This document shows, in pieces, positions 56,809-64,000 of a stretch of DNA of 64,000 nt. Made by a program: the position numbers and the translations under genes. The DNA comes from Methanosaeta sp. PtaU1.Bin112 (GTDB taxonomy: Archaea; Halobacteriota; Methanosarcinia; Methanotrichales; Methanotrichaceae): assembly GCA_002067705.1 (NCBI GenBank), contig MVRL01000136.1, positions 1-64,000 of the forward strand, read 5' to 3'. The notes beneath the pieces are model-generated. The model ran no database searches and was not told the origin of the DNA. It worked only from the letters and a program-made list of their open reading frames with translations. Within the stretch, counting starts at the first letter, position 1, and each line of letters begins with the position of its first letter.

Positions 56809-56930
56809 TTTACACTCAATATCATATCAATTGCAATCATAATAGTTAGCACTTTATCAAATATATTTATTAACAAAAGAGACTTATATTTGAATTGTCC
56901 TAATAAGCGAAAATTATGAGGAGAATTGAT

Positions 56931-58040
56931 ATGAAGAATAGGATAGTTTCAGCTTTGCTGATTCTACCGCTAGTGGCATTGCTCTTCTGCATGTCCTGCG
57001 GGGCAGCAGATTATCCAATGACATTCACCGACTCAGCCGACAGAGAAGTCACCCTGCAAATGCCGGTGGAGAGAATTATAGTATTGAGCACCGATGCGGC
57101 AGAAGCAGTCGAGCTACTGGGAGCTGCGGACAAGATCGTCGGAGTTACAGATACCGTTCAAAAATACAGCTGGTACTTCCCGAATCTTAAAAATAAGGCA
57201 CTGGTGGGCAAATGGAGCGCACCTGATTATGAGGTCATAGCCCAAATCGCCAAGGGAAATGAGGATTCTATAACACCTAATATTCTTGTGCTGGGCTATC
57301 CTTCCGGCAAAATGGGCGGAAAGTCCTATGGTGTGGATGCGGTAGCTGAGGGACTTGCACCATTTAAAGACATCGCAATTGCCGGCTTCAGCTTCTATAA
57401 GGGTGATAGCATGGATGAAGAGATAACCATGCTGGGCAAGATTCTGGGCAAAGAGGATAAAGCTGCTGAGTATCTTGCCTGGAAGAACTCCAAGAAAGAG
57501 GCCATCACCAATGCCGTAGAGGGCAAGAACATTTTCAGGGTTTATTTTGAAAATACTCAGCCTAAGGGACTGGGAGAGCTCAAAACCAATGGCGGAGCAT
57601 CCGATATCGATAAGAGTATCCGGCTGGCTGGAGGGCTAAATATATTCGGATCTTCCTCAGATGAGTCAATTACAACCAGCTGGGAGGAGGTCATCAGCAA
57701 GAACCCCGATGTCATCTTCCAGGTAAAATCCGACGACATTTTGGGTTGGGGTGCCTTCCCATCCAGCAACACAATTGCCGCGCAGCAGGTTCGCGAAGAG
57801 ATCATGACCCGCACCGGTGGTAAATCAGTCCCTGCCATCAAGAATGATAGAGTCTGGATACTCTACCGCAAGATGCTCTATGGTCCGGGAGGCTTAGCCG
57901 GAACAGCTTTCATGGCCAAGCTAATGCATCCCGAAATAGATCTCGATCCGGTCGGCATCTATAAGGAGTACCTTGATCTGCTGGGCATCAAGTATCCGGA
58001 AGGCAGGACATTTGTATTCCCTGAGATGGAAAGTGAGTAA
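56931..58040 (+). CDS. ABC transporter binding protein, iron-chelate/B12 type
   Basis: About 369 residues from ATG 56931, preceded by GAGGAGA with six bases spacing (an earlier in-frame ATG at 56916 is less likely). Signal or lipoprotein-like start (LLILPLVALLFCMSCG). Class III periplasmic binding fold: MTFTDSADREVTLQMPVERI, LSTDAAEAVELLGAADKIVGV, and ending WEEVISKNPDVIFQV. Family members bind ferric chelates, heme or cobalamin. No permease or ATPase gene is adjacent, so the transporter partner is elsewhere or the protein acts with the dockerin-type homologue downstream. Confidence 0.82.
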   Translation: MKNRIVSALLILPLVALLFCMSCGAADYPMTFTDSADREVTLQMPVERIIVLSTDAAEAVELLGAADKIVGVTDTVQKYSWYFPNLKNKALVGKWSAPDYEVIAQIAKGNEDSITPNILVLGYPSGKMGGKSYGVDAVAEGLAPFKDIAIAGFSFYKGDSMDEEITMLGKILGKEDKAAEYLAWKNSKKEAITNAVEGKNIFRVYFENTQPKGLGELKTNGGASDIDKSIRLAGGLNIFGSSSDESITTSWEEVISKNPDVIFQVKSDDILGWGAFPSSNTIAAQQVREEIMTRTGGKSVPAIKNDRVWILYRKMLYGPGGLAGTAFMAKLMHPEIDLDPVGIYKEYLDLLGIKYPEGRTFVFPEMESE

Positions 58041-58061: not shown

Positions 58062-58337
58062 CTATCCGGTAGCCATCAACAGAAACAAGAGAACCAATAG
58101 CCTGACCAGAACATTGATTCCTGTCGATACTACTACCAGTGACAGGCCTAGTCTCATGCCGAAGACCGAGGCATAGTTTGGCATCAGCGATTTTATGGCG
58201 TAGACGGGAAGCATGAACATGCTGCCCAGCATCAAGACGATCAGTGCCTGGATCTCAGATATGTTTCCATTCTGGATCATGGGTCCGAGAAGGGTCATGC
58301 CTGCTTTGGGGCTGGCCACATGAATAGAGAGGTTCAA
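58062..58337 (-). pseudogene. Truncated inverted copy of the Gate-domain protein
   Basis: 91 residues closely match the C-terminal quarter of the intact protein at 58910-59851 (HVASPKAGMTLLGPMIQNG, VLMLGSMFMLP, GMRLGLSLVVVSTG versus VASPKAGMSILGPMIQSG). Homology starts abruptly near 58320, the N-terminal three quarters are absent and the copy is on the other strand. A rearrangement breakpoint. Confidence 0.75.
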
Positions 58338-58909
58338 TCGCTGACTTCACAGCTTTTTTTATCTGCGCCTGTATCCAACCAGCAAATAGATGACGAATTC
58401 GGCAGGTTTGATGACATTTTTAAATCAATGGAGGAATCAGAATTGGATGGAGGAGAGGATGGGTGATTTAGAGGGGGAGTTTTAGGGCGGGGAGATCGAC
58501 GTCATCCCCGCTGATGAGGTAGCTGCCTGCAAGGAGAAGATGGCCGGGGTGATCGGCGAATAGATAGGACGGAAAACATCTCGAAGGACATGAGACCAAA
58601 GCAGATAATTTTGAAAAAGTTCATCATGATCTTTATCTCTTTAATGCAAGATATAAATTATAACTAATTACGATTTTAAAGATAATCAAAACCTATTTAA
58701 TCATATCTTGTTTAACTATAGTATTATGATAGAGGGAAAAATGGTAAGGGAAGAAAGGAAGGTGCAGAGAAATAAAATCGATTAGGGGATCTCAGGAGGT
58801 TGCAGATACCATTCTCGATGTCCGGAGAGTATTTGCGCTAATGCCGAAAAGATGGGATGAATAGAGCGAAATCTGAAAAATCTGAATATATGCGGTTGCA
58901 AGAAATCCG
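58320..58909 (+). other. Mosaic of gene debris upstream of the Gate-domain gene
   Basis: Right of the inverted copy, 58320-58466 reads a 48-residue acidic stretch (LFLSAPVSNQQIDDEFGRFD, DIFKSMEESELDGGEDG), and 58486-58563 reads GGEIDVIPADEVAACKEKMA then GVIGE. Neither has a recognised family. From about 58620 to 58740 the DNA is strongly AT-rich and may hold a promoter, then the ATPase remnant at 58789-58860. No intact gene. Confidence 0.4.
58789..58860 (+). pseudogene. Remnant of an ABC ATPase C-terminal (oligo-HPY) domain
   Basis: The codons read ISGGCRYHSRCPESICANAE KMG and stop at 58858-58860. The GCRYHSRCP pattern is the hallmark of the C-terminal extension of nickel/peptide transporter ATPases (GCRFHPRCP in NikD/DppD/OppD). 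An in-frame stop lies just upstream (58783-58785), so only this piece survives. It is on the plus strand, 5 kb from the ATPase-less nik operon. Confidence 0.55.
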
Positions 58910-59851
58910 ATGATGCTTGATATCATTCAAGAAGCGGCGAAATCGACGATATCAACAATGTCTACCGTCTTCTTGATGCTCTTTCTGACAGGCATAATGG
59001 CTGAGATGGGCCTATTTCATAAAATGGCATTCATTGCCGAGCCTCTCGCTTCGGCGTCGCATCTGCCTACCATTTCCGCCTCCTCCTTTGTAGTAAGCAT
59101 CGGCTCAAAGCTCGCCGCCAACGCAATGACTGCCAGGCTTAAGGAAGAAGGGCATTTGACTGAACGGCAGGCATTCCTCAGTGCCTTATTGAATACAGTC
59201 CCCGTCTATTTCCGGGAGATGTTCACATATCAGCTTGCCTACGTAATTCCGGTTTTAGGTCTGATTGTGGGAGGAGCATATGCAGTCATCTTTTCTGCGA
59301 CCGGGATCATAAAGCTGATAATAATCGTAATGCTGGGGCGAAGATTCCTTGATAGGGATTTGGCAAAGCCTGCGGAAGCGATTAAAATTGCACCCAAGAG
59401 AAGCATTATGCAGGCAGCGAAATCCTCATTGGCAGGAGAGATGCCGATGTTTATCCGGATGACAGTGATCTTCTTTTTAACGACATTTTTAATCATATAT
59501 TTGAATAAAAATGGAGCACTCGAATCGATGAACGTGCTTCCTTTGGCTCATCTCTTCCATGTCCCTCCCGAGACGATAGTTCCATTAACAGTATTCGTGG
59601 CCAGCCCCAAAGCAGGAATGTCCATTCTCGGGCCTATGATTCAAAGCGGCAGTTTATCCGAGGTCAAGGCATTAATGGTCTTGATGCTGGGCAGCATGTT
59701 CATGCTTCCGTTTATCGCCATCCGTTCAGAGATACCAAACCATGCGTCTTTGTTTGGCATGCGCATGGGACTTTCATTGGTGGCGACCTCTACAGCCATC
59801 AGCATGTTGGTGAGGCTGACTGCATTGTGCTTGCTGATGATAATGAATTGA
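58910..59851 (+). CDS. Nucleoside-recognition/Gate-domain membrane protein
   Basis: 313 residues with about seven to eight membrane helices and two Gate-type halves, the fold shared with nucleoside transporters, spore maturation proteins and the FeoB pore. Markers: FLTGIMAEMGLF, SIGSKLAANAMTAR, FVASPKAGMSILGP, MLGSMFMLP. The ATG (with a second ATG following) has no strong ribosome-binding site. Located between two iron/B12-type binding-protein genes, it may be a metal or small-molecule permease of this locus. Substrate unknown. Confidence 0.8.
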   Translation: MMLDIIQEAAKSTISTMSTVFLMLFLTGIMAEMGLFHKMAFIAEPLASASHLPTISASSFVVSIGSKLAANAMTARLKEEGHLTERQAFLSALLNTVPVYFREMFTYQLAYVIPVLGLIVGGAYAVIFSATGIIKLIIIVMLGRRFLDRDLAKPAEAIKIAPKRSIMQAAKSSLAGEMPMFIRMTVIFFLTTFLIIYLNKNGALESMNVLPLAHLFHVPPETIVPLTVFVASPKAGMSILGPMIQSGSLSEVKALMVLMLGSMFMLPFIAIRSEIPNHASLFGMRMGLSLVATSTAISMLVRLTALCLLMIMN

Positions 59852-60009: not shown

Positions 60010-61269
60010 ATGAAATTTTCTGCCGTTTTTCTGGCATTGTTCCTGGCAGGTACATCGGTTGCATCAGGTGCTTCTGATTATGTCCTGGGAATCTTTGGAA
60101 ACGCAAATATGGATGGAACAATAGATGAAGCAGATGCCGCATACATTAAGGAGATCATCGATGCAAAGGCGAATACTACGGAGCTGGCCGACGCCAACCA
60201 TGACGGCATGGTGGATTCAAAGGATATAGACCAGGTAAAGATGATAATAAACGGCATTGAAGAAGAGCTTACTGTGCTCATGGATGTCAGGACCAGCATG
60301 GGGTCCACTGAGATATCAAAGACGCCGGTGACGATTCCTATTCCCGTGAATAGGATAGTTGTAACCTCACCGTACTCCCTTTCCATTCTCAGGTCGCTCA
60401 AGGTCGAGACGGACAGAATCGTCGGCATTCCGCTCATCAGCAAAGAAGCAACTGATTATTTCCCTGAGTTTGGCCAAATAGACTCCATCGGCGGCTCAAA
60501 CAACGTGGACTATGAGAAGATCCTCAGCCTCAACCCAGATCTGGTCATAGTCTTCACCTCGGGCCTGAAAGATGCTTCCGAGAAGCTTCCCGGTGTGACC
60601 ATAGCTACCTTTGATTTCTGGAGGCCTTCTTCCTACGTCGACGAGACCAGAAGGCTTGGATATATTCTGGGAAAGAATGAGGAGGCAGAGGAGTTTATCT
60701 CATTCTATAGCGGCGTCATGGACTCCATTAGCAAGAAGGTTGATGCGATTGCTTTAGACAAAAAACCAAAGATATACTTTGAGAGCGAGCAGCCCTATGC
60801 GACCAGCGGAAACGGTTCAGGATGGAACGAGAAGGCAACTTTAGCAGGAGGAAACAACATCTTCGGCGACCTTCCCGGATATCCGACTGTCGATGCTGAG
60901 ACTGTGATGACCAAGAATCCGGAGTTCATTGTCAAGCAGCCCAAATCCGGGCCGGTGACAAGCGCAGCTTACCTGCTCGGAACTAATGAAACGGCTCTCA
61001 GCCAGGCAAGAGATGAGATCATGCTGCGTCCCGAGCTATCCCAGGTGGATGCTGTCAAGAAGAGCAATGTCTACATCCTCTATGGAGACATCATTGGAGC
61101 GACACGACATTTTGTAGGCATCGCTTATATGGCCAAGTGGTTCTATCCTGACCTCTTCAAGGACCTCGATCCAAAGGGCATTCACCAGAGATATTTGACC
61201 GAGTTTCAGGGTTTGCCAAGCGATTTCCTGGAAAAGCACGGCGAATTCGCTTATCCTGAAGCGGCCTGA
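60010..61269 (+). CDS. Binding protein (iron-chelate/B12 type) with N-terminal dockerin module
   Basis: 419 residues. Signal peptide (FSAVFLALFLAGTSVASG). Residues about 28-85 form a type I dockerin: two EF-hand-like repeats (NANMDGTIDEADAAYIKEI and DANHDGMVDSKDIDQVKMI) each followed by a helix. Then a class III binding-protein fold (PVNRIVVTSPYSLSILRSL, DYEKILSLNPDLVIV, IFGDLPGYPTVDAETV, PEFIVKQPKSG). Dockerins normally dock to cohesins, so the binding protein may be tethered to a surface scaffold. Ligand likely a metal chelate or tetrapyrrole. A hairpin terminator follows. Confidence 0.85.
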   Translation: MKFSAVFLALFLAGTSVASGASDYVLGIFGNANMDGTIDEADAAYIKEIIDAKANTTELADANHDGMVDSKDIDQVKMIINGIEEELTVLMDVRTSMGSTEISKTPVTIPIPVNRIVVTSPYSLSILRSLKVETDRIVGIPLISKEATDYFPEFGQIDSIGGSNNVDYEKILSLNPDLVIVFTSGLKDASEKLPGVTIATFDFWRPSSYVDETRRLGYILGKNEEAEEFISFYSGVMDSISKKVDAIALDKKPKIYFESEQPYATSGNGSGWNEKATLAGGNNIFGDLPGYPTVDAETVMTKNPEFIVKQPKSGPVTSAAYLLGTNETALSQARDEIMLRPELSQVDAVKKSNVYILYGDIIGATRHFVGIAYMAKWFYPDLFKDLDPKGIHQRYLTEFQGLPSDFLEKHGEFAYPEAA

Positions 61270-61472: not shown

Positions 61473-62837
61473 ATGCAAGCGGGTGCCGAGGTTGGGAGAA
61501 TGATCGAATCGATATCTAATGACGCCGGTTTTAATGAAAAATGCCTTCGCTTGAGCAATCTGTCCGGGCCTGGTTTGATGCCCAAGACCGCCTGTGCTCA
61601 GTATCCAGGCACGCACTGCTCATTTCGGGCAGTGGCAGGAAGCTTGACTCTGATCAAAAACGCATATGCTCTTCTCCTTGGACCTGCCATCTGTCTTTAT
61701 AACGCCAAGCTCTCCATGAGCGTCAGATCTCTTACCTCGGACCCCAGGCCCAATAATCTGCTATTTCTTGAATACACTCAGGACGATGTGATATTCGGCT
61801 TTCGCAATAGAGTTATGCAGACAATACTGGAGATAGACCGCATATACCATCCCGAGCTTCTCTTCGTGGTAACTACATGCCTCCAGGAGATTGTAGGCGA
61901 GGATTTTGAGGCCACAATCGATGAGATAAGGTCGATAGTTAAGGCCAAGCTGCTGGTGATCCATACTGAGAATTTCACCTCTGAGGAGGCCACTCCCGGA
62001 ATCGAGAACCTGTTCTCTTCTTTCTTCGACTTAATGCAGCCAGAAACCGTTGTACCTAAATCTGTTAATATCCTGGGGCTCTGGACCTACCACGCCAGGG
62101 AGACCGAGCTGGCACTGCTCCTGAAGAGCAAGGGGGTAGAGGTCAGAAATGCGATACCATCATTCTGCACTCCGTCGGATCTTGCCGGAGCGACGGGAGC
62201 ACAGATGAACATAGTGCTGGATCAGTATGCTCTGCCTCTTGCCAAAAAGATGAGGGAGTGCTTTAGCACCGACTACATCTACTGTCGCAAACCCTATCAT
62301 CCGGATTCAATTGAGATCTGGTATAGAGATCTGGCCGGAGCGCTTGACATAGACCTGAGCGAGGAGATCCGGAGGATGAAGACGGAGTCTCTGGAGATGA
62401 TGGCACGGGCGAGAAGCCTTCTTTCCGGCAGGAGCTGCGCCCTAACCTGGAACACCGGAAGGACATTCGATCTGGCAAGGCTTCTCTCGGAGATTGGGAT
62501 CAAGATCGATGTGATTTTGGCCCAGACGATCCTGCCTGACGACCAGGAGGATATCCGAAAGCTTCTCTCTATGGGTGTTGATCCGTGGATCTTCAGAGGC
62601 GACAACTCTCTACAGACCGAGGCTCTTCTTTGCCGGCTCAAGCCAGACATATTCGTGGGCGGCCAGGACCCTCAGTCTCTTGCCAGGCTCGGAATAGAGC
62701 CATGCAGCATATCATTGTCACATTCCATGTTCGGCTTTGGGTGCTGCAAGGAGGTGCTAAGCCGCCTCTGCCGAAGGGCTCCAGGAATAGAGGCTCTTAT
62801 GTACAAAGAAGATCTGATCTCTCAGGGGGCGGTCTAG
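61473..62837 (+). CDS. Nitrogenase component 1-like subunit (NifD/NifE-type)
   Basis: 454 residues, start ATG 61473 supported by AAGGTG five bases upstream (61462-61467); ATG 61500 is an alternative. Nitrogenase-superfamily pattern: Cys49 (GTHCSF), Cys74 in LLLGPAICLYN (compare HGPxGC of NifD) and Cys136 in VTTCLQEIVGED (compare TTCxxExIGDD). Spacing 25 and 62 agrees with the three cluster-ligand Cys of NifD (62, 88, 154). The C-terminus has SLSHSMFGFGCCKEVL where NifD has its cofactor His region. Not a normal NifD: several cofactor-pocket segments differ. Followed without gap by the partner subunit. Substrate unknown. Confidence 0.8.
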   Translation: MQAGAEVGRMIESISNDAGFNEKCLRLSNLSGPGLMPKTACAQYPGTHCSFRAVAGSLTLIKNAYALLLGPAICLYNAKLSMSVRSLTSDPRPNNLLFLEYTQDDVIFGFRNRVMQTILEIDRIYHPELLFVVTTCLQEIVGEDFEATIDEIRSIVKAKLLVIHTENFTSEEATPGIENLFSSFFDLMQPETVVPKSVNILGLWTYHARETELALLLKSKGVEVRNAIPSFCTPSDLAGATGAQMNIVLDQYALPLAKKMRECFSTDYIYCRKPYHPDSIEIWYRDLAGALDIDLSEEIRRMKTESLEMMARARSLLSGRSCALTWNTGRTFDLARLLSEIGIKIDVILAQTILPDDQEDIRKLLSMGVDPWIFRGDNSLQTEALLCRLKPDIFVGGQDPQSLARLGIEPCSISLSHSMFGFGCCKEVLSRLCRRAPGIEALMYKEDLISQGAV

Positions 62838-64000
62838 ATGGATCTGAAGCATAGCGGCTTTCCGGTTCCCTCGGATTATTTTGGCGTCCTTTGGGGCCTT
62901 TCCGGCATCAAGGACCTTGTGATCCTGGAGCACGGCTCTCCTGGGACATGCAGCTACAATGCATTCAATTACAGAATCATGAACCGGCAGTCTCCCAAAG
63001 GCAAGCTCTTCTCCAGCGGAATGGACCAGGATGATGTGGTCATGGGCAGGGCCGATAAGGTCGTTGAGGCCGTAAGAGAGCTGGACCATAACCTTCATCC
63101 CAGGATCATTGCGCTTGTTGCTACGGGAGTCACCTCCGTGATTGGGCTGGACCTTGACGGGATCATCAGTGAGATCCAGCCTTTGACCCATGCAAGACTC
63201 GTATCCTTCCCGCACGGGGGATTTGCCGGAGACTACAACCAGGGGATAATGGAATCATTTCGCACTATGGTCGATCTGGCTAAAGAGCCGGCGGAGCATA
63301 AGCCGTTCTCAGTCAACATAATCGGTCCAACCATAGACTCCTTCAACAATGTCTCAGACCTGGCGGAGATAGAGAGGATGCTGGAGCTATTGGGTGCCGA
63401 GGTCAATACGGTATTCACCAGCCGGACCGCGGTTGAGGAGATTGAGCAGATGGCCTCTGCCTCTTTGAACCTGGTGACCAGGGATTTGGGACTTGAGACC
63501 GCTCAAATTCTCAAAGAACGGTTCGGCATGCCTTACATTCATGGCCTTCCTTTTGGAGTTCATGGCTCTGTCAGGTGGATGAATGATATAGCAGATAACC
63601 TGGGACTTCGCCTGGAGAAAAGGACTATTGCCCAAGAGCTTCTGAAGTACGGATATTCTGTGCTTGAGCTCTTCGGTTTCATGCAGAACTTCGACCATCT
63701 CAGGTCGCTCTTATCCTGCCCCTGCGATTACGCCCTGGGTCTGGCAGGTTGGATGGCTGAGGAGTGGGGTTTGCCCCCATCAGCTGTTGCCCTGCCAGCC
63801 AGGCCGCAGATGCCGCATGTCCCTGAGAAGCTGGAAAGGATGGGGGTCTCAAAGGTGCTCATAGAGCCAGAATCCCTGACAATCGAGGATGCCCTCAACA
63901 GCATCAAGCCGCATGTGATCTTTGGAAGCTCTTACGATCTGCAGATCGCCAGGAACGTTCCCGTCAAGATACATGCTGCATTTCCTGCCTTCGATTACAT
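62838..64000 (+). CDS. Nitrogenase component 1-like subunit (NifK-type), 3' end outside the window
   Basis: 387 codons visible from ATG 62838, immediately after the previous stop; no stop before the right edge. FGVLWGLSGIKDLVILEHGS precedes PGTCSYNAF, equivalent to the first NifK cluster Cys (Cys38 here). The other two NifK Cys are replaced: SSGMDQDDVVMG lacks the second, and VATGVTSVIGLDLDG has Val where TTC is expected. Later markers: FSVNIIGPTIDSF, MPYIHGLPFGVHG, SCPCDYALGLAGW. With one Cys here and three in the partner the pair predicts one bridging FeS cluster. No nifH-like reductase is within the window. Confidence 0.78.
   Translation, partial: MDLKHSGFPVPSDYFGVLWGLSGIKDLVILEHGSPGTCSYNAFNYRIMNRQSPKGKLFSSGMDQDDVVMGRADKVVEAVRELDHNLHPRIIALVATGVTSVIGLDLDGIISEIQPLTHARLVSFPHGGFAGDYNQGIMESFRTMVDLAKEPAEHKPFSVNIIGPTIDSFNNVSDLAEIERMLELLGAEVNTVFTSRTAVEEIEQMASASLNLVTRDLGLETAQILKERFGMPYIHGLPFGVHGSVRWMNDIADNLGLRLEKRTIAQELLKYGYSVLELFGFMQNFDHLRSLLSCPCDYALGLAGWMAEEWGLPPSAVALPARPQMPHVPEKLERMGVSKVLIEPESLTIEDALNSIKPHVIFGSSYDLQIARNVPVKIHAAFPAFDY

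Follow-up and report, generated by a model that had tools for sequence, protein, structure and literature searches.

The right-hand end of the window, as we call the whole 64,000-nucleotide stretch of DNA analysed here, carries two abutting genes, A and B, for component 1-like subunits of the nitrogenase type. Gene A (61473..62837, + strand) is an open reading frame for a NifD-like subunit of 454 aa. Gene B (62838-64106, + strand) encodes a NifK-like subunit of 422 aa; the window holds positions 62838..64000 of it and cuts the protein after residue 387. Both reading frames contain the PF00148 (Oxidored_nitro) domain at full length, with 186 bits for A and 235 bits for B at a cut-off of 28.6, which confirms the two adjacent component 1-like genes described in an earlier sequence-only reading of this DNA. 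Signal or transmembrane segments were predicted in neither protein. The same reading had pointed to the region right of position 64000 as the place to look for a NifH-like reductase gene. Such a gene, H, is present there on the same contig directly after B (64103-64846, corresponding to L009:12104-12847); it starts with TTG and overlaps the end of B by four bases. After a 213-base AT-rich gap follows, likewise past the window end, a gene for a CobN/Mg-chelatase-type protein of 1236 aa (65060-68770, L009:13061-16771). According to the gene maps, the order A-B-H is constant across all archaeal loci.

Directly upstream of A, an exported substrate-binding protein of the Peripla_BP_2 type with a dockerin domain is encoded (60010..61269, + strand), as shown by domain match and signal segment, and a domain match revealed a second exported Peripla_BP_2 protein at 56916..58040 (+ strand). 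The gene at 58910..59851 (+ strand) codes for a membrane protein whose homologue in L062 weakly matches the nucleoside-recognition 'Gate' domain (26.1 bits, under the cut-off of 29.6); open reading frames of similar size occur near A in L062 and L065. At 58444-58557 (+ strand) a 38-residue C-terminal CobN remnant with one in-frame stop matches the downstream CobN at 74%, and the segment beside it, 58062-58337 (- strand), encodes a C-terminal piece of the Gate-like protein. The two pieces show that parts of the cluster are present a second time, in decayed and rearranged form.

The source genome (G000) is a 3.44-Mb draft of 200 contigs with a completeness of 99.2% and a contamination of 3.7%. 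It carries mcrA and, on contigs other than that of the window (C136), its own cfbD (G000:C163) and a complete nifH-I1-I2-D-K-E-N set. These genes identify the organism as a methanogen or a close relative of one, equipped with a real nitrogenase set; we presume it to be Methanothrix-like.

Of the 50 genomes of the window's order, 6 contain relatives of A-B-H at an identity of about 57% or higher. The window's own genome is one of them and holds a second copy on contig C72. In genome G031 (L065:9894-12186) A and B are both broken by stops or frame changes, reflecting either decay or assembly errors. Outside the order, one clear archaeal relative was found in genome G420, with a B protein 43% identical; among 232 searched genomes of the order of G420 none came as close. 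Sporomusa termitida, a bacterium of the termite gut, carries a relative with 28-29% identity on a plasmid. Scanning genome contigs for relatives gave one locus, viral contigs scanned with B-family queries contained no relatives, and a match on a Nostoc plasmid was rejected as a vnf cluster. In the trees the Sporomusa proteins are joined with a support of 100/99 (A with D), 97/91 (B with K) and 95 (clade of both H proteins), and since the trees of A, B and H all agree, they describe one family. B and CfbD are not joined in the best tree, and their joint clade was not rejected by the AU test (p 0.38). Groupings of A with BchN/BchY (p 0.22), of B with BchB/BchZ (p 0.34) and of A with NifD/NifE (p 0.18) were not rejected either. 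In this phylogeny, a check named in the sequence-only reading, A, B and H form a distinct clade without close clustering with CfbD, NifDK or BchNB/YZ. Judged by the sequences compared, A-B-H is a distinct family close to none of these enzymes, for which a sister group is neither supported nor rejected.

The reductase H exhibits a P-loop (GKGGIGKST) and the motifs GCAGRG and DVVCGG, so that both cysteines for a [4Fe-4S] cluster are present. Its best curated score was obtained with the CfbC model (334, cut-off 402). The archaeal H proteins (L009:12104-12847 for the window copy) have an additional cysteine immediately ahead of the loop with the first cluster Cys (AECGGPTPG), which is common to G420 and absent from Sporomusa H and from NifH.

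Cluster ligands were assigned by aligning 65 component 1 proteins, namely those of the genome's nif set and of two bacterial ones, BchNB, BchYZ, CfbD and further nitrogenase-like proteins; the ligand columns of B were placed by a profile HMM built from other K-type proteins. Cys49 (codon 61617..61619, + strand), Cys74 (61692..61694, + strand) and Cys136 (61878..61880, + strand), already picked out in the first subunit from the sequence, fill the three P-cluster columns of NifD, i.e. Cys62, Cys88 and Cys154 in Azotobacter or Cys63, Cys89 and Cys155 in the Methylococcus row used. As they are invariant in all eight family members, the bacterial relative included, their occurrence is not a matter of chance. 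In B, Cys38 (codon 62949..62951, + strand) had been described as the only cysteine and assigned to the first NifK position. It is the only one at a P-cluster position, but further cysteines exist outside these positions (e.g. A Cys24 and B Cys294), and the profile HMM puts Cys38 on the second position instead (NifK Cys95, BchZ Cys35, BchB Asp36), with one residue inserted before it (HGSPGTC vs HGSQGC). The two remaining NifK positions are free of cysteine, as had been stated, but they are the first and the third, occupied by Ser12 and Gly97 in the alignment as well as in the profile HMM.

Among the aligned proteins, a cysteine at the fourth-ligand position of B occurs only in the six full-length sequences of the window's family; Thr37/Val38 is found in the G420 relative and His in Sporomusa termitida. 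Because of this variation the 3+1 arrangement is a feature of a clade and not a rule of the family. That the fourth ligand can vary has a precedent in DPOR structures, where an Asp occupies this place. A structure model of fused A-B (three sequences, inter-gene stop read as Gly) reached a pLDDT of 35.4 and a pTM of 0.24, values too low to be informative.

With regard to the known enzymes of the superfamily, A and B score far under every NCBIfam equivalog cut-off (NifDK, NifEN, BchNB, BchYZ and CfbD). An identity with a Mo, V or Fe nitrogenase of the NifDK type was rejected because of Ser12 and Gly97 of B at P-cluster positions, the low scores and the lack of FeMo-cofactor ligands in A, where Asp250 occupies the Cys275 column and the position of His442 is not His. 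For NifEN, the ligands, the number of genes and the curated scores led to rejection. The earlier statement that the enzyme is not a true nitrogenase therefore holds, and a separate nifHDKEN set is encoded elsewhere in the genome; judged from its residues, A-B-H cannot fix nitrogen. Mar and Isr (Group IV) share the arrangement of H, D and K and a tie to nutrient uptake and use, but their gene sets include a radical SAM gene, and none was recognised at the A-B-H locus. Membership of the same superfamily and weak similarity to NifE and NifD would be compatible with a nitrogenase or a Mar/Isr-like enzyme that houses a large cluster. The loss of the B-side P-cluster cysteines and of the cofactor Cys and His makes such an enzyme extremely improbable, since Mar uses all six P-cluster cysteines and carries an [8Fe-9S-C] cluster (PMC12552129). 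An identity with Mar was rejected because A-B does not offer these six cysteines.

The single-cluster enzymes are more similar to A-B-H. COR (BchXYZ) consists, like A-B-H, of an H-type reductase and two component 1 subunits and reduces a tetrapyrrole at a single interface cluster. Like the window's family, and unlike G420 and Sporomusa, it combines three cysteines in the first subunit with one in the second, at BchZ Cys35. However, the BchZ model gives 82.4 bits at a cut-off of 529 and no match to BchY was obtained; moreover, no bch genes lie near A-B-H, its fourth ligand is not constant and its host is a methanogen. In DPOR (BchLNB) three cysteines on N hold a single [4Fe-4S] cluster together with an Asp of BchB. 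Window B has Thr37/Cys38 instead of this Asp36, its BchB score is 133.9 at a cut-off of 490.35 and there is no chlorophyll pathway. CfbCD of coenzyme F430 synthesis is a tetrapyrrole reductase of methanogens, and H is closest to the CfbC model; yet CfbD is one subunit forming a homodimer, in comparison to the two different subunits A and B. The conclusion that A-B is not the single-gene CfbD was borne out: an identity with CfbD was rejected on the basis of two genes instead of one, TIGR03282 scores of 30.3 and 40.2 (cut-off 268.4) and the separate cfbD in the same genome. Tetrapyrroles are the substrates of both DPOR and CfbD, in each of which the interface holds one simple cluster (PMC12552129).

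The CobN-type gene lies 0.2 kb from H at the window locus, 2.5 kb at the C72 locus and 3.3 kb in G013. The three CobN proteins are only 29-33% alike and represent three different subfamilies, so that the association with A-B-H probably arose more than once. On the other hand, 40 of the 50 genomes in the order have a CobN, so that the association carries limited weight; adjacency could partly result from chance or from general clustering of metal genes. Near the G420 copy and in the 50 kb read of the Sporomusa plasmid CobN is absent. The window CobN is full-length and nearer to CobN (7c6o) than to ChlH or HmuS, and no transmembrane segment was predicted in it. HmuS takes iron out of haem, and its authors described the archaeal use of HmuS/CobN/ChlH homologues as unclear (PMC12583661). 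In contrast to the window CobN, HmuS is membrane-bound and needs NADH, and no hmu operon exists at the window locus. In G013 the CobN (L031:15360-20600, 1746 aa) has a signal segment, a fusion to a PQQ beta-propeller and a C-terminal hydrophobic segment and is, by these features, probably extracellular. A CobN-family gene is also situated between bchB and bchL in the bch cluster of Sulfitobacter.

The nearness of CobN at three loci, together with the cobaltochelatase partner subunits encoded elsewhere in genome G000, would suit a biosynthetic role, in which a tetrapyrrole cofactor, new or modified, has a double bond of its ring reduced by A-B-H and receives from CobN a metal that the importer merely supplies. 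The 3+1 cysteines as in BchYZ and the methyltransferases beside the related systems on contigs C88 and C154 (see below) point in the same direction. We regard this role as unlikely, since other tetrapyrrole biosynthesis genes were not recognised in the loci, an occurrence in 6 of 50 genomes would be odd for a core cofactor and the Sporomusa copy belongs to a siderophore-uptake operon.

Metal-chelate importers form the second recurring context. A Peripla_BP_2 gene was found near eight of nine loci, the ninth being located on a 5.9-kb contig. Because 69 Peripla_BP_2 matches occur in the 3.4 Mb of G000, many of them arranged in tandem and carrying dockerin domains, the nearness of binding proteins alone is weaker evidence. 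FecCD permease genes lie within 5 kb at five of seven loci (G010, G013, G031, G420 and Sporomusa), a count that leaves out the C72 copy and G035 on account of their short contigs. Near the window copy, which has binding proteins only, and near G034 no FecCD was found within 5 kb. With 5-17 FecCD matches in each of the archaeal genomes searched, we estimate that roughly one in twenty random loci would have FecCD within 5 kb. The importer arrangements of G010/G013, G031, G420 and Sporomusa differ from each other and hence do not represent one inherited block.

The plasmid operon of Sporomusa comprises genes for a TonB siderophore receptor, an AraC-type regulator, a binding protein, permeases and an ATPase, followed by H, D and K and an esterase. 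With TIGR01783 the receptor scores 339.6 bits (cut-off 223.5); its results for haem and B12 stay far under the respective cut-offs (55 bits against 599.7 for the B12 model). The binding protein is closest to the enterobactin and ferric-dicitrate models, the importer is completed by two iron permeases and a Fec-type ATPase, and the esterase shows weak similarity to enterochelin esterase. Siderophore operons commonly hold an iron-releasing enzyme, a reductase or an esterase, at the place taken by H-D-K in Sporomusa.

Such an operon suggests that the whole family might reduce ferric siderophores or other metallophores, with H-A-B stripping iron from very stable ferric complexes and CobN being incidental. 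The association of the archaeal copies with FecCD and Peripla_BP_2 genes agrees with this proposal. As a family-wide function it appears improbable to us, however, given that CobN from three subfamilies recurs by the archaeal copies, that the known single-cluster relatives act on tetrapyrroles and that some archaeal importer genes score best, all below cut-off, against BtuC, corrinoid or haem models. A corrinoid activator, reducing imported cob(II)amide to the cob(I) state for adenosylation or salvage, would fit the permease scores against BtuC and the G013 ATPase, whose best match is a corrinoid-ATPase model; corrinoids are required by methanogens growing on acetate. We consider this very unlikely, as genes for adenosyltransferase or cobalamin salvage were not recognised in the loci and the Sporomusa receptor remains so far from the B12 cut-off.

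From the observed gene content, ligand positions, family and genomic context we infer a cluster type, a pairing of A with B, a substrate class and a reaction that would make A-B-H an ATP-driven single-[4Fe-4S] reductase of an imported metal chelate, a reading with a probability of roughly 0.45. A, B and H would form a cytosolic nitrogenase-like enzyme. At the expense of ATP hydrolysis, H would deliver electrons of low potential from its own [4Fe-4S] cluster to a single [4Fe-4S] cluster lying between A and B. Three ligands of this second cluster would be Cys49, Cys74 and Cys136 of A, and the fourth a residue of B that varies in the family (Cys38 in the window), with the substrate bound directly beside the cluster as in DPOR. 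The substrate may be a metal chelate taken up by FecCD/BtuCD-type ABC importers with Peripla_BP_2 proteins; its reduction could either loosen the metal or saturate the ligand and thereby make metal or ligand available again. The CobN-type chelatase encoded nearby in the archaea might demetallate or remetallate the chelate. For the archaea we take a tetrapyrrole as the most likely chelate, because CobN is near and tetrapyrroles are what the functionally characterised single-cluster relatives reduce; for Sporomusa a ferric siderophore is the probable substrate. These two contexts point towards different ligands, and one substrate class may not cover the whole family. Against an importer-linked role speaks that the ATP cost would be unusual for simple iron release. 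In a wider and more tentative form, an ATP-driven nitrogenase-type reductase that evolved for nutrition could possibly free metal reductively from imported siderophores or tetrapyrroles in archaea and bacteria, with a fourth ligand that varies between lineages.

The roles known for nitrogenase relatives are nitrogen fixation, the synthesis of chlorophyll and F430, and sulfur salvage. If A-B-H is tied to metal-chelate import, both its role and the arrangement of its cluster ligands would be new among these relatives, and the Sporomusa operon provides a bacterial copy in which the link to import is testable. If true, the proposal would also offer an answer on the archaeal use of HmuS/CobN/ChlH homologues (PMC12583661). 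In the open literature searched, which covers Cfb, Mar, Isr, Nfa and HmuS as neighbouring subjects, we found no account of the A-B-H family, nor of siderophore or FecCD operons that contain nitrogenase-like genes; subscription papers lay outside the scope, and an earlier mention is possible.

Genome G000 contains two further families of nitrogenase-like D-K-H sets, with a 3+1 distribution of cysteines on contig C88 (L012) and a 2+2 style split on contig C154 (L011). No description of either family was found in the literature retrieved. The genes beside many of their relatives (L069-L072, L075-L077) code for FecCD importers, SAM methyltransferases and binding proteins with dockerin domains. One C88/C154-type set, in L072, is accompanied by a CobN that shares 62% identity with that of the window. 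Near the nitrogenase-like sets of L078, L080 and L081 no FecCD match was obtained. Single-gene NifD-like proteins of 390-417 aa with three cluster cysteines and a cysteine in the cofactor column are encoded at L073:9927-11117, L079:9450-10703 and L068:9380-10552, those of L073 and L079 being located near cfbD and cfbE.
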